Shown: positions 1,449-59,815 of the stretch, in pieces
Numbering within the stretch: position 1 is the first letter of the stretch
How the letters are laid out: every line of letters starts with the position of its first letter
Assembly (NCBI GenBank): GCA_905234865.1
Contig: CAJOJE010000003.1
Span: 62,001-126,000, forward strand
Length of the DNA stretch: 64,000 nucleotides
Reading direction: 5' to 3'
Source of the DNA: Candidatus Gastranaerophilales bacterium
GTDB taxonomy: Bacteria > Cyanobacteriota > Vampirovibrionia > Gastranaerophilales > Gastranaerophilaceae
The notes under the pieces: generated by a model
The model's database searches: none
Seen by the model: only the letters and a program-made list of their open reading frames with translations
What the model was told of the DNA's origin: nothing
Position numbers and translations under genes: made by a program

Positions 1449-1461
1449 TGGTACGATTTTA
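1449..1461. promoter_or_regulatory. Overlapping divergent -10 boxes for the LCP and TPR genes
   Basis: Plus strand: TGG followed by TACGAT (about 1452-1457), an extended -10 ending six bases before the ATG at 1464. Minus strand: TAAAAT (about 1461-1456), giving a predicted start near 1449 and a short leader to the LCP ATG at 1423. The two hexamers share bases, so RNA polymerase should occupy only one direction at a time. No clear -35 box was seen on either strand. Confidence 0.5.
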
Positions 1462-2075: not shown

Positions 2076-2081
2076 TATAAT
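2076..2081 (+). promoter_or_regulatory. -10 box of ruvA, predicted leaderless
   Basis: A perfect TATAAT is followed by six bases and then the ruvA ATG at 2088. With normal -10 to start-site spacing the first transcribed base is the A of the ATG. No Shine-Dalgarno sequence lies between the box and the start. Confidence 0.55.
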
Positions 2082-2087
2082 TAACCT

Positions 2088-2696
2088 ATGTTTGATTATA
2101 TTAAAGGTGAATTGGTATTTAAAGGCGATAGCATCACGATTGAAAATAACGGCATAGGATATTCCGTTTTAACAAATTCAAGAACGGTATCGCTTCTGCC
2201 TGATATCGGAAGTCAGGTTAAAATTTATACAAAATTAATCCACAAGGAAGATTCTATGCTTCTTGTCGGTTTTAAACAAAAAGAGGACAGGGTAATTTTT
2301 GATGTTTTAACATCGGTTTCAGGCATTGGGGTTAAAGTTGCCCTTATTTTATTGGATGAATTTTCGGGACAAGAATTAATTGATTACGTTATATGCGAAG
2401 ATTATAAATCTATTTCAAGAGCAAAAGGCGTCGGACAAAAGCTCGCACAAAAAATTATTCTTGAATTAAAGGGAAAATTAACGGACAAAAAAACAACAAA
2501 AGATATAGCCCTCGGCAAATTTGAAAATGCAAACGTTGACGGCGAAGCAATTCTTGAAGTTCAAACCATTCTTCAATCTTTAGGATACACGCAAAACGAA
2601 TACACAAAAGCAATCGAATATGCAATTAATAATGCAAAAGCGACGGGAAGCGAGGAAATTTTAAAAGAAGCGCTTTCCTTATTATCAAATATTTAA
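2088..2696 (+). CDS. ruvA: Holliday junction branch migration protein RuvA
   Basis: 202 residues, the usual RuvA length. It binds four-way junctions and loads the RuvB motor during recombinational repair. The N-terminal OB-fold starts MFDYIKGEL and includes a YIKG motif. Two helix-hairpin-helix motifs follow (LTSVSGIGVKVAL and ISRAKGVGQKLAQKIILELK), then an acidic linker and the C-terminal three-helix RuvB-binding domain (LQSLGYTQNEYTKAIEYA). ruvB and ruvC are not nearby, as is common in cyanobacterial relatives. The start is fixed by the conserved N-terminus and the -10 box just upstream. Confidence 0.96.
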   Translation: MFDYIKGELVFKGDSITIENNGIGYSVLTNSRTVSLLPDIGSQVKIYTKLIHKEDSMLLVGFKQKEDRVIFDVLTSVSGIGVKVALILLDEFSGQELIDYVICEDYKSISRAKGVGQKLAQKIILELKGKLTDKKTTKDIALGKFENANVDGEAILEVQTILQSLGYTQNEYTKAIEYAINNAKATGSEEILKEALSLLSNI

Positions 2697-4352: not shown

Positions 4353-5312
4353 TTAAAAAGCGGGCGTTGCTTCGTTAAACACCATTTTTTCAAATGCAAA
4401 ATCGGTGTGTTTTTGAACAAGATAAGTTTTTACAAAAATCTCGTTTTGGTGAGAGTTTTTATATTCTTCATCAAAGCTTTCTTTTAATTGAGTAAAGTTT
4501 GAGTAAAAACTTTCTAATTTTACATACAGGTTTTTAAAATTTTTATTGGTTGATAATTTTAATTCCGCATATTTGATAATATCGGGCGCATAAGCCTCAA
4601 AAAAAGGTTTTATCGCAAATTCGAGCGAATAATCCTGAATATTTATTTTTTGTAATCTGAAATATCCCAATATTTGATCATAGTTTTTATCAAGAAGCAA
4701 ATATTGTCCGACTTTAGAAAAATAATCTTTTCTTAATTCGGTTTTACTCTTCATAAACGTTCTTTTTTGATATGAAAACATCGTCCCGTTAATAAGATTT
4801 TGCACTTCTTTTATATCACGAAATTCCATAGGCTTTACATAATCAAAATTAAAGTTTTCGTTCTTGAAATCAATGTCTTTTTTTTCAATTTTATAGACAA
4901 TTTCTTTTGCGAAATTTTGAAACCCTAAAGCATCCTTGAACATGGAAATTAAATTCAAATTTTCACCGTCCACTATTGCGTAAAAAGATTCTGCCCCCTT
5001 TGAAAGATAAGCGTTTACAACGTAATTTACAAGAAGTTTTCCCGATTTTGCCGAATTTTCACCCATTAAAATTCTTGTAATTTTAACTTTTCTACTGCCC
5101 GTTTTCACAACGCTCATAAGTCCGTTAATTTTTTTATCTTCGATTGATACGAAAGTTTCCGTTAAAAATTTCAATTTTAACGGAAGAAGATAGTGAATAA
5201 TATCAATCGGGAAAAGAGAAAATTCAAACGGCATAAATTTAACACCCGCATATTCTTCAAGGGGTTTTAATTTATTTTTATTGACAAATACTACATTTTT
5301 TATAACCGTCAT
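4353..5312 (-). CDS. Uncharacterised protein, possibly tandem GNAT-like acetyltransferase fold
   Basis: 319 residues, soluble, no signal peptide or membrane helix. I do not recognise the family with certainty. The pattern of beta strands and helices (SVVKTGSRKVKITRILMGE followed by GKLLVNYVVNAYLSKGAESFYAIVD, then a second half with YLLLDKNYDQILGYFRLQKI) resembles two GNAT-type N-acyltransferase domains, but no clear acetyl-CoA loop can be confirmed by eye. The ATG at 5312 follows a TATACT box by eight bases, so the message probably has almost no leader. It is convergent with glgA; the small gene at 5367 lies directly upstream on the same strand. Confidence 0.7.
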   Translation of the reverse strand: MTVIKNVVFVNKNKLKPLEEYAGVKFMPFEFSLFPIDIIHYLLPLKLKFLTETFVSIEDKKINGLMSVVKTGSRKVKITRILMGENSAKSGKLLVNYVVNAYLSKGAESFYAIVDGENLNLISMFKDALGFQNFAKEIVYKIEKKDIDFKNENFNFDYVKPMEFRDIKEVQNLINGTMFSYQKRTFMKSKTELRKDYFSKVGQYLLLDKNYDQILGYFRLQKINIQDYSLEFAIKPFFEAYAPDIIKYAELKLSTNKNFKNLYVKLESFYSNFTQLKESFDEEYKNSHQNEIFVKTYLVQKHTDFAFEKMVFNEATPAF

Positions 5313-5320
5313 ATTGAAAT

Positions 5321-5326
5321 AGTATA
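5321..5326 (-). promoter_or_regulatory. -10 box TATACT, near-leaderless
   Basis: On the minus strand TATACT is followed by eight bases and then the ATG at 5312, giving a leader of zero to two bases. No Shine-Dalgarno sequence is present. Confidence 0.4.
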
Positions 5327-8099: not shown

Positions 8100-8110
8100 A
8101 CATTTATTTT

Positions 8111-8135
8111 ATTATAAAATTTTTTATAGTAAAAT
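8111..8135. promoter_or_regulatory. Divergent promoters between cysS and purA
   Basis: Minus strand TATAAT (about 8116-8111) serves cysS with a leader of about four bases. Plus strand TAAAAT (about 8130-8135) serves purA with a leader near 28 bases that contains AAGGG about nine bases before the ATG at 8170. No convincing -35 boxes were seen. Confidence 0.5.
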
Positions 8136-27921: not shown

Positions 27922-27931
27922 ATTATAAAAT
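27922..27931. promoter_or_regulatory. Overlapping divergent -10 boxes (ATPase-folD-alr and GT9)
   Basis: Minus-strand TATAAT (about 27927-27922) and plus-strand TAAAAT (about 27926-27931) share two bases. The plus box ends seven bases before the GT9 ATG at 27939, predicting a leaderless message; the minus transcript has a leader of about 25 bases with a Shine-Dalgarno sequence. Confidence 0.5.
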
Positions 27932-30312: not shown

Positions 30313-30321
30313 TGGTATAAT
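30313..30321 (+). promoter_or_regulatory. Extended -10 box TGGTATAAT, predicted leaderless
   Basis: TATAAT (about 30316-30321) with TGG directly upstream, then six bases and the ATG at 30328. The arrangement is the same as at ruvA and pheA. No Shine-Dalgarno sequence. Confidence 0.6.
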
Positions 30322-34561: not shown

Positions 34562-36298
34562 CTACATCGAAGCTCCGTAAACATTTTTTGCGGCTGCCGA
34601 ACTTAATTTATTTGTCAAAGAAGGGCTGTACGAAACGGGAATAGATTGTGCGGGGAGCTTTGTATTCGGAATATTATTTACGTTTGCTCTTTGTATATTT
34701 CCTTGATTAATGTTATTTTTTCCCAAAACATCAATTATGACGAGTCTTTTATCGTCTTTTACCGATAAACCGTTATTTTGAGGCATTTTTTTCAAATAAT
34801 CAATCAGACATTTATCTTTATCATAATCAAATCGCTTTAAAATTTGCTTATTCGCCATTTTTTCGGGAACAAAAACGGGATATTCCGTTCCTTTAGCGAG
34901 AAAGCTGTCGTAACATACGGTATAAGCTTTATCTGTCGGGTTGTTTATGTCAATTTGTGTTTTATTGCCGTTCTTATCAACAAAATACAATTCATGTAAA
35001 TTGCCCGCATTATCGGCTTTATAGCTTAAACCGGATGTATGTAAAAGCCCCGGTTCGCCGGTTTCGCTTGAATAAGTTGCTTTTAGCGAATCTTTTAATC
35101 CTTGAACGATTTCTTTTTCGCTCATATACTTTACCAGAAGTTTATTTTTCAAAGGGGTAGATTCGCTTATGTCACGTTCGGTTAAACTTCCCGTCTTTGG
35201 AACTTTTCTTGTATTTGCCGCATTAATAAAGGCAATATCGGCGCCCGCTTCTTCCCTCATGGCATCGCACATAAAGTTTGTCCAAGCGCATGGAGTTGTT
35301 CTTCTGTTTGCGGGAAGCGGATCCGTATGGAGAATTTTTGCCACAACGGGAGATTTTCCCAAAGTTGCGTCTTTCAAATAACTTAAAACGGGTGATTTTT
35401 CCGTATTCATTTTTATTAAATTGTTTTCGGCAGAAACAGGAACTCCTTTTTCGTCAAATTCGATATTTAAAATTCCCGCATTTCTTGCATTTTCGCCGGT
35501 TTGAACGATTAAAACGGGGTCACCGTCCAAATTGTTAAACAAATTCTTATTCGGTTCAATTCCTTTTACTTCGGTATGGGAGTGTCCGCCCACAATTACG
35601 TCGACTTTATGGAGTTTAGGGGCAATTTCTTTATCTTTGTCGTTTCCTATGTGCGTTATAAGAATAATTTTATCAACGCCTTGCTGAGTAAGTTTTTCGG
35701 CTTCATCATTTACGATTTTTACCGAATTTTCAATATCGTAGGGGCGAATGCCTTCCATTTTTTCATCGTCTTTTCCGCAAACGGTTTCCAAATCAAAAGG
35801 CAAAAGTCCGATTAAGCCGTATTTGTGTCCGTTTACTTCAACAATGCTTGATTTTTGAACATTGTTATAAAATTTTGAGTTGTTCGGAGCTTTTGCATTA
35901 GCTGCAATAAATTTTGTTTTATCAGGGTTTAAATATGTGTAAAAAGAACTTATCGTAGAATCAAATTCATGGTTTCCGACGGCAGATGCGTTAATTCCCA
36001 TTCTTGACAAAAGATTTATGACAAGTTTATTCTTTTTCTTATCGCCGCCTGCAATATTGTCACCGCCCGAGATTTTCAAAGTGTCTGTCGTACTCGATTT
36101 AATTTCTCTGTCAAATTTATCGGAAGCGGCAACAAGTCCCGACATATTATCTATGTTTCCATGCAAATCGTTAATGTAAAAAATGCTCAGTTTCGTCCTG
36201 CCGTCTTTATGTTGAGCGGATACAGGCGAACTAACATTTTGAGGTGTCATTACATTTATCATACAGGGATAAAACCGATGAACCTCAAAAATTGCCAT
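34562..36298 (-). CDS. 5'-nucleotidase/UshA-like metallophosphoesterase
   Basis: 578 residues, or about 566 if the ATG at 36262 (MINVMTPQN) is used; neither start has a clear ribosome site. The N-terminal calcineurin-type domain has INDLHGNI, SGGDNIAGGD, GNHEFD, ILITHIGND and GGHSHTE, the full set of metal ligands. The C-terminal 5'-nucleotidase domain (from about residue 330) holds the substrate-recognition part (FINAANTRK, GLSYKADNAG, YDSFLAKGTE). Family members hydrolyse nucleotides or UDP-sugars outside the cell, but no signal peptide is visible here, which is odd and leaves location open. Confidence 0.88.
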   Translation of the reverse strand: MAIFEVHRFYPCMINVMTPQNVSSPVSAQHKDGRTKLSIFYINDLHGNIDNMSGLVAASDKFDREIKSSTTDTLKISGGDNIAGGDKKKNKLVINLLSRMGINASAVGNHEFDSTISSFYTYLNPDKTKFIAANAKAPNNSKFYNNVQKSSIVEVNGHKYGLIGLLPFDLETVCGKDDEKMEGIRPYDIENSVKIVNDEAEKLTQQGVDKIILITHIGNDKDKEIAPKLHKVDVIVGGHSHTEVKGIEPNKNLFNNLDGDPVLIVQTGENARNAGILNIEFDEKGVPVSAENNLIKMNTEKSPVLSYLKDATLGKSPVVAKILHTDPLPANRRTTPCAWTNFMCDAMREEAGADIAFINAANTRKVPKTGSLTERDISESTPLKNKLLVKYMSEKEIVQGLKDSLKATYSSETGEPGLLHTSGLSYKADNAGNLHELYFVDKNGNKTQIDINNPTDKAYTVCYDSFLAKGTEYPVFVPEKMANKQILKRFDYDKDKCLIDYLKKMPQNNGLSVKDDKRLVIIDVLGKNNINQGNIQRANVNNIPNTKLPAQSIPVSYSPSLTNKLSSAAAKNVYGASM

Positions 36299-43803: not shown

Positions 43804-45087
43804 ATGAAAAAAGATTTAAAGGCGGTAATACTCGCAGCAGGCAAGGGTACAAGAATGAAATCAAAAACCCCGAAGGTTTTGCATGAAATTTTTAATAAAC
43901 CGCTTATTGCAAGGGTTATAGAAGCGACAAATAAAACAGGCTCCGTTGAAAACATTGTCGTTATAGGACATGGCGGAGAACTTGTTGAAAAATATTTATC
44001 TCAGAATTATAAAAATTCAACCATAGTAGTTCAAAAAGAACAGTTAGGAACAGGACATGCCGTAAAAACAGCGAACGAGAAACTGAAAAATTACAAAGGC
44101 AATGTCCTTATTTTATGCGGCGACACACCGTTAATAAAAAAAGAAACTTTGATTGATTTTGTAAACTTTCACAACGAAAACAACTCCGATATAACGGTTA
44201 TGAGCGCCGTTTTTGATAATCCGAAAGGATACGGCAGAATAATAAGAAATAAAAACGATGAGCTCGAAGAAATCATCGAAGAAAAAGACGCAGACGAAAA
44301 CGTAAAAAAAATAAAAGAAGTCAATGCGGGTGTATATTGCATAAACTGGGAAACATCAAGCATCGGAATTGATGAAATAAAAAACAATAACGCACAAAAA
44401 GAATACTATATAACGGATATTATTAAATGGGGAAAAATTAACAATAAAAGAGTTTTTCCTTACACAATAAACGACTCCGATGAAATTTTCGGAATAAATT
44501 CAAGAGAAAATTTAGCCGAAGCAGTGCAAATTTTGAGAAAAAGAAAATTAAAAGAGCTTATGGATGAAGGAGTAACAATAGTTGATACAAATACGACTTA
44601 TATTTCTCCCGAAACTCAAATTGAACCCGACACGATAATTCTGCCTTCCGTTGTAATCGAAGGAGAAAATAAAATCGGCAAAAATTGCAAAATCGGTCCT
44701 TTTTCGCATTTAAGAGGGGATTGCACAATAGAGGACAACGTAAAAATCGGAAATTTTGTTGAGCTTAAAAAAGCACATGTTAAATCCCGCACAAACGTTT
44801 GCCACTTAACTTACATAGGCGACAGCGAGCTTGGAGAAAACGTAAACATAGGCGCAGGAACAATTACGGCAAATTACGATTCAAGAACAAAAATAAAGTC
44901 AAAAACAATAATAGAAAACGGTGCTTCAATCGGCTCAAATACGGTTATGGTGGCTCCCGTCACAATAGGAGAAAATGCTCTAATCGGAGCAGGCTCAATC
45001 ATCACTAAAGATGTCGGAGCTAATTCCTTGGGTCTTACAAGAGCGCCCCAAAAAGAAATTAAAAATTACATAAACAAAGGAGAATAA
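43804..45087 (+). CDS. glmU: Bifunctional GlmU: GlcN-1-P acetyltransferase / GlcNAc-1-P uridyltransferase
   Basis: 427 residues. It makes UDP-GlcNAc for peptidoglycan and lipopolysaccharide. The N-terminal uridyltransferase begins with LAAGKGTRMKSKTPKVLHEI, with QLGTGHAV and LCGDTPL further on. The C-terminal left-handed beta helix (hexapeptide repeats such as IGKNCKIGPFSHLRGD and NVNIGAGTITANYD) performs acetylation. It is slightly shorter than E. coli GlmU (456), mainly at the C-terminus. An AAGG ribosome site lies seven bases upstream. The stop is one base before prs, so they form an operon. Confidence 0.96.
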   Translation: MKKDLKAVILAAGKGTRMKSKTPKVLHEIFNKPLIARVIEATNKTGSVENIVVIGHGGELVEKYLSQNYKNSTIVVQKEQLGTGHAVKTANEKLKNYKGNVLILCGDTPLIKKETLIDFVNFHNENNSDITVMSAVFDNPKGYGRIIRNKNDELEEIIEEKDADENVKKIKEVNAGVYCINWETSSIGIDEIKNNNAQKEYYITDIIKWGKINNKRVFPYTINDSDEIFGINSRENLAEAVQILRKRKLKELMDEGVTIVDTNTTYISPETQIEPDTIILPSVVIEGENKIGKNCKIGPFSHLRGDCTIEDNVKIGNFVELKKAHVKSRTNVCHLTYIGDSELGENVNIGAGTITANYDSRTKIKSKTIIENGASIGSNTVMVAPVTIGENALIGAGSIITKDVGANSLGLTRAPQKEIKNYINKGE

Positions 45088-58372: not shown

Positions 58373-58378
58373 ATTTTA
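58373..58378 (-). promoter_or_regulatory. -10 box of der, predicted leaderless
   Basis: Minus-strand TAAAAT, six bases, then the ATG at 58366. No Shine-Dalgarno sequence in between. Confidence 0.5.
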
Positions 58379-59806: not shown

Positions 59807-59815
59807 TGCTAAAAT
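59807..59815 (+). promoter_or_regulatory. Extended -10 box of pheA, predicted leaderless
   Basis: TGC followed by TAAAAT, then six bases and the ATG at 59822. A TTGTAT lies 16 bp upstream as a possible -35. No Shine-Dalgarno sequence before the ATG. Confidence 0.55.

Follow-up and report, generated by a model that had tools for sequence, protein, structure and literature searches.

The genome of Candidatus Gastranaerophilales bacterium (GCA_905234865.1) appears to have, for about 7% of its genes, sigma-70 promoters whose transcription start (+1) is the A of the ATG, giving leaderless mRNAs, with the 5' ends predicted from sequence and a probability of roughly 0.9 assigned to this reading. The analysis started from a window of 64,000 nucleotides (contig CAJOJE010000003.1, positions 62,001 to 126,000, forward strand), to which all coordinates without a locus label refer. 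In the proposed arrangement, an ordinary sigma-70-type promoter, with TT(T/G) near -35, a 17-nt spacer and a T-rich stretch, often with TG, before TANAAT, would have its -10 box placed such that transcription, naturally beginning 6 or 7 nt downstream of the box, starts on the A of the ATG of the gene. A start on this A means that the transcript would begin with AUG, and it would be translated as a leaderless mRNA without Shine-Dalgarno (SD) pairing, with initiation presumably on the bare 5' AUG. This mode would serve roughly one gene in fourteen, with AUG only, alongside a majority of genes with leaders, and the leaderless genes would stand first in their transcription units, in many cases at compact intergenic regions between divergent genes.

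In the window, ruvA (2088..2696, plus strand; TIGR00084, 173.5 bits, alignment from residue 1) is leaderless by this geometry, having the -10 box TATAAT (2076..2081, plus strand) separated by the gap TAACCT from its ATG at 2088. The RuvA protein is 72-76% identical to those of eight relatives (seven Gastranaerophilales and one Candidatus Galligastranaerophilus). The preliminary description had cited six examples of a -10 box ending 6 or 7 nt before the ATG, and all of these, as well as ruvA, were found in the sequence as described. These include two TPR genes, with TACGAT (1452..1457, plus strand, gap 6, ATG 1464) and TATAAT (30316..30321, plus strand, gap 6, ATG 30328; promoter profile (PWM) 13.0 bits), a GT9 glycosyltransferase gene with TAAAAT (27926..27931, plus strand, gap 7, ATG 27939; PWM 14.9 bits), der (Der by TIGR03594) with TAAAAT (58373..58378, minus strand, gap 6, start 58366), and pheA for prephenate dehydratase with TAAAAT (59810..59815, plus strand, gap 6, ATG 59822). 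The TGn reported directly ahead of the -10 box in three of them is present as TGG at 1464 and 30328 and as TGC at pheA. Two other genes, one starting at 5312 (TACTAT, 5319..5324, minus strand) and cysS (identified by TIGR00435; TAAAAT, 8106..8111, minus strand, start 8099), had been called near-leaderless; both show the identical, exact gap of 6 nt. The reported lack of an SD sequence also held, with GGAG, GAGG and AGGA all absent ahead of the cited genes, none of which carries the GGAG-like motif 5-12 nt ahead of the start that defines the SD-led class, although this absence is partly forced because the box occupies -12 to -7. Two further ORFs of the window have TANNNT at -12, at 36298 on the minus strand (TAACGT) and at 43804 (TAAGGT), and these may be chance matches.

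The expectation that distances from the -10 box to the start codon form a sharp peak was borne out over background, both in the own genome and across the family. The own-genome sample covers 464 kb in 21 stretches (the window and 20 others) with 398 ORFs, each opened at its first ATG by a simple caller and left uncurated, and the background was the mean at positions -30 to -15. TANNNT starts at -12 in 46 ORFs versus 15.25 per background position (Poisson P 1.7e-10), and TANAAT in 29 versus 3.5 (P 2e-17), with flat neighbouring positions (nothing at -14, -11 and -10) except for a TANAAT shoulder of 8 at -13. The family sample, 1.65 Mb in 81 stretches from the own and other genomes of the family, has TANAAT at -12 in 83 of 1419 ATG genes. 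TANNNT about 12 bp upstream and above background, the TA-like leaderless signal as defined by Zheng 2011 (PMC3160421), is present in these data.

A codon test independent of the choice of start scored each codon 3-15 nt after TANAAT that opens a frame of at least 90 codons. With 64 codons tested in the family sample, ATG was found 86 times at gap 6 and 27 times at gap 7, with a background of 10.1. Among the codons listed, no other is markedly over-represented at gap 6 from TANAAT, the largest excess of the next codon being 2.9, and the alternative starts GTG and TTG are found one and two times at this gap in the same sample. First-ATG calling can pick a wrong start, and the called ATG could be spurious, with the true start downstream and having its own SD; the chance of this is close to negligible, given that an ATG-limited peak would not arise in this way, that the alignments of RuvA, Der, CysS, UvrA, Dxr, TrkA and GlyS with their family profiles begin at residue 1-5, and that the start is common to orthologues.

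The promoter signature extends beyond the box to features outside the gene selection criterion, namely the -35 element, T at -15, T at -1 and the loss of A at -3. In the 83 TANAAT genes, the positions -35 to -33 have T 70%, T 60% and T 52%/G 24% (background T 38/36% at -35/-34), followed by a 17-nt spacer to the box, and T is found in about 57-71% at -20 to -17 and in 75% at -15, with G in 39% at -14. A at -3 is present in 28% of these genes versus about 51-57% in SD genes, and T at -1 in 87% versus 42% of 772 SD genes (P 1e-15 on rounded counts).

Start sites of sigma-70 promoters vary by a base or two. Together with the existence of the gap-7 class (22 genes), this could fit a start site just ahead of the ATG, with leaders of 1-3 nt and not of zero. 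Under the Y(-1)R(+1) initiator rule, however, a leader of 1 nt would predict a purine at -1, whereas T occupies this position in the gap-6 genes at the percentage given above and in 21 of the 22 gap-7 genes, as the Y(-1) of an initiator ending at the ATG. The pyrimidine-purine start step therefore ends on the ATG in both classes, and leaders of 1-3 nt have only a slim chance of being the correct description. A locus-cross-validated promoter profile, used at 8 bits, placed the predicted +1 at 0 in 70 genes, at -1 in 15 and at +1 in none.

The genomic context of the box is that of transcription units and their first genes. It was found in 41 of 432 divergent genes versus none of the 213 that overlap a co-directional gene upstream, and a tight co-directional context is present for 10% of the box genes versus 41% of the SD genes, which agrees with the restriction to single or operon-proximal genes in Zheng 2011 (PMC3160421). 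Of 30 divergent starts 40-60 bp apart, the profile scored 14 as leaderless, versus 7 of 120 for those 90-150 bp apart. As separate observations, the locus L083 (5602-5644) has a divergent leaderless pair of dnaX and a gene for an uncharacterised 261-aa protein, with 41 bp between the start codons and almost fully overlapping promoters. A second divergent pair, with 46 bp between the start codons, lies at L081:11129-11176 and encodes a FlhA C-terminal-like protein and a 119-aa protein; for the FlhA-like protein (L081:9681-11129), the match to the FlhA model is confined to the second half of the model and scores 144 bits vs a cut-off of 772.

The upstream regions are AT-rich and S1-type proteins are present, as would suit a TA-rich hexamer acting in translation, that is, a non-SD AT-rich signal for binding of the ribosome or S1 within a longer leader, a mechanism put forward for some non-SD phyla. 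Such an element should serve operon-internal genes too, and the -35 in register, T at -15 with TG, T at -1, the loss of A at -3 and the absence from overlapping operons are features of transcription, which leaves a translational element with a very slim chance. The earlier interpretation that the start site lies on the A of the ATG draws support from the same features, the 5' end being a predicted one.

The geometry had also been described as frequent. It does recur genome-wide, and its share is only about 7% of the ATG ORFs, since a profile trained solely on the other genomes of the family called 30 of 388 in the own genome versus 1.8 at shifted positions; the training set of this leaderless PWM belongs to the same motif class as the genes called. 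The called genes include dnaX, cysS, der, uvrA, dxr, glyS, trkA, ruvA, pheA and a gene for a TatD-type nuclease.

The geometry is inherited among orthologues. In the eight nearest relatives, within the genus, TATAAT at -12 of ruvA is kept in all, the der orthologues are split evenly between gap 6 and gap 7 (four each), seven of the cysS orthologues have gap 6 and the eighth has gap 7, and seven of the pheA orthologues have gap 7 and the eighth has gap 6. For the gene at 5312, the box is at -12 in three of three distinct upstream sequences of the genus orthologues found. The clearest example is dnaA (TIGR00362, 446 bits): in ten genera of the family, none of them the window's own, every one of the 33 genomes with a scorable start has TANNNT precisely at -12. 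This set consists of 32 distinct upstream sequences plus the locus L101 (TAAAAT at -12, at the locus edge); it leaves out L093, where the start lies outside the locus, and the window's own genus, and the repeat loci L242 and L243 come from the genomes of L117 and L113, respectively. In the 32 upstream sequences, T-19 to T-17, T-12, A-11, A-8, T-7 and T-1 are invariant, an SD-like motif was found ahead of none, and the pairwise identity is 0.90 in the box vs 0.36 at -45 to -22.

Among 620 orthologue pairs of the family, 51 are leaderless in both members versus 9.2 expected, and 49 of the 100 pairs having any leaderless member are discordant. For the TPR gene at 1464, the relatives L002 and L003 keep the box at -12, and in L004 and L005 the same TGGTACGAT box precedes a short leader, which in L004 contains AAGGAG. 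Similarly, many distant relatives have the TATAAT of ruvA further upstream, with GGAG between the box and the ATG. Thus one and the same gene can switch between a leaderless and an SD-led form. In the ruvA loci L013-L035, TATAAT puts the predicted start at or just before GGAG, with leaders of roughly 10-15 nt. A sharp -10-to-SD spacing class with the start on the A of AGGAG, prompted by the distant ruvA, was tested on 452 SD genes and rejected because the boxes form a broad hump at about -13 to -27 from the SD, without a single dominant position.

The translation background of the lineage is a mixed one, in which SD-led and leaderless modes coexist. SD-like motifs are found ahead of about half of the ORFs in the own-genome sample. 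Proteins with S1 domains were found in 20 of 20 relatives searched, the S1-type proteins having about 360 aa. By exact string match, the anti-SD string GGATCACCTCCTTT was present in three of nine order-level 16S loci, and the 16S search gave no match in the own genome. With these counts, loss of S1 or of the anti-SD as the driver of the leaderless mode was considered and is not supported.

The breadth of the signal was examined with whole-genome counts of the pattern TATAAT-N5-T-ATG, the control being the reversed string, a choice that leaves the general AT-richness of DNA ahead of start codons uncontrolled. The own genome has 58 matches vs 10 in the control, and 26 genomes of the family have 2054 vs 422, the lowest genome having at least 55. 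The genus g14 showed no -12 peak among 80 genes, and despite this its three whole genomes have 117 matches vs 44. In 33 genomes elsewhere in the phylum the pattern was not enriched (186 vs 241). Within the same order, the families f15 (101 vs 28) and f14 (122 vs 48) look positive and f11 (260 vs 149) weakly so, and f10 and f12 gave no positive pattern signal; elsewhere in the class, the ratios lie at 2.0-2.6 for the families f6, f4 and f3, whose counts are smaller, these family sums leaving out f2. Because the reversed-string control is imperfect, the enrichment in the sequences outside the family (f3, f4, f6, f11, f14 and f15; ratios 1.7-3.6) is suggestive only. In f4 (L168-L172), TANAAT was observed 7-8 nt before the ATG, with six at -14 in 81 genes and mostly without T at -1, a geometry unlike that of the window's family.

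Leaderless gene starts of this kind are known, if uncommon, in other bacteria. Of 953 bacterial genomes surveyed in Zheng 2011 (PMC3160421), 207 have the same signal, and Cyanobacteria are described there as relying largely on atypical signals; the StartLink paper (PMC9581028) predicts leaderless transcription in 21.6% of bacterial species. In Deinococcus, such a motif has been shown experimentally to be a -10 element (Zhong 2025, PMC12340547). As reported for Deinococcus-Thermus (PMC12340547, PMC3160421), TANNNT a few bases before the ATG acts there as the -10 element and leaderless genes exist alongside SD genes; however, about 30-40% of the genes are involved, with TANNNT as the motif, in contrast to about 7% here, with an AT-rich TANAAT, a visible -35, a T-rich/TG element and AUG only. 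Low-GC Firmicutes such as Lactococcus (PMC3160421) likewise have TAtAAT at about -12 with a TG peak before it, at an average of 4.2% of the genes in positive genomes, in an unrelated phylum. In photosynthetic cyanobacteria, which belong to the same phylum, transcripts beginning at the start codon have been mapped by RNA-seq; they differ in that leaderless mRNAs are sparse, with 51 cited for Synechocystis 6803 (PMC9938897) and 19 for Synechococcus elongatus UTEX 2973 (PMC6091082). For non-SD cyanobacterial genes, leaderless mRNA and/or S1 had been suggested by Nakagawa 2017 (PMC5397173). The preliminary description knew of no such report for this lineage, and in agreement with it no leaderless description for Melainabacteria, Gastranaerophilales or Vampirovibrio was found in open-licence PMC full text. 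On dnaA mRNA in connection with leaderlessness, one paper (PMC4117421) was listed there.

The finding extends a known kind of gene start to a new lineage; less usual are the strict signature of AUG-only starts with T(-1) and the conservation of a leaderless dnaA. It is doubtful, and offered here as a tentative thought, that leaderlessness is a selected, gene-specific state and not drift, with an output that could depend on the condition of the ribosome pool (70S or initiation-factor ratio). The genes cited for it are dnaA, with its register in every scorable genome of ten genera, ruvA, uvrA, dnaX and the TatD-type nuclease gene, and also cysS and glyS. If true, such control would set genes for replication/repair and aminoacyl-tRNA synthetases apart from SD-led genes.

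In practical terms, gene finders tuned to SD sequences may misplace the starts of leaderless genes, and Gastranaerophilales could respond differently to antibiotics whose effect differs between leadered and leaderless mRNA, as described in PMC9581028. The leaderless class is added to a gut lineage of non-photosynthetic cyanobacterial relatives inside Cyanobacteriota, in which ruvA and the TPR gene have changed between a leadered and a leaderless form from one relative to another, and the conserved leaderless dnaA provides a clean test gene for why a bacterium retains the leaderless mode.
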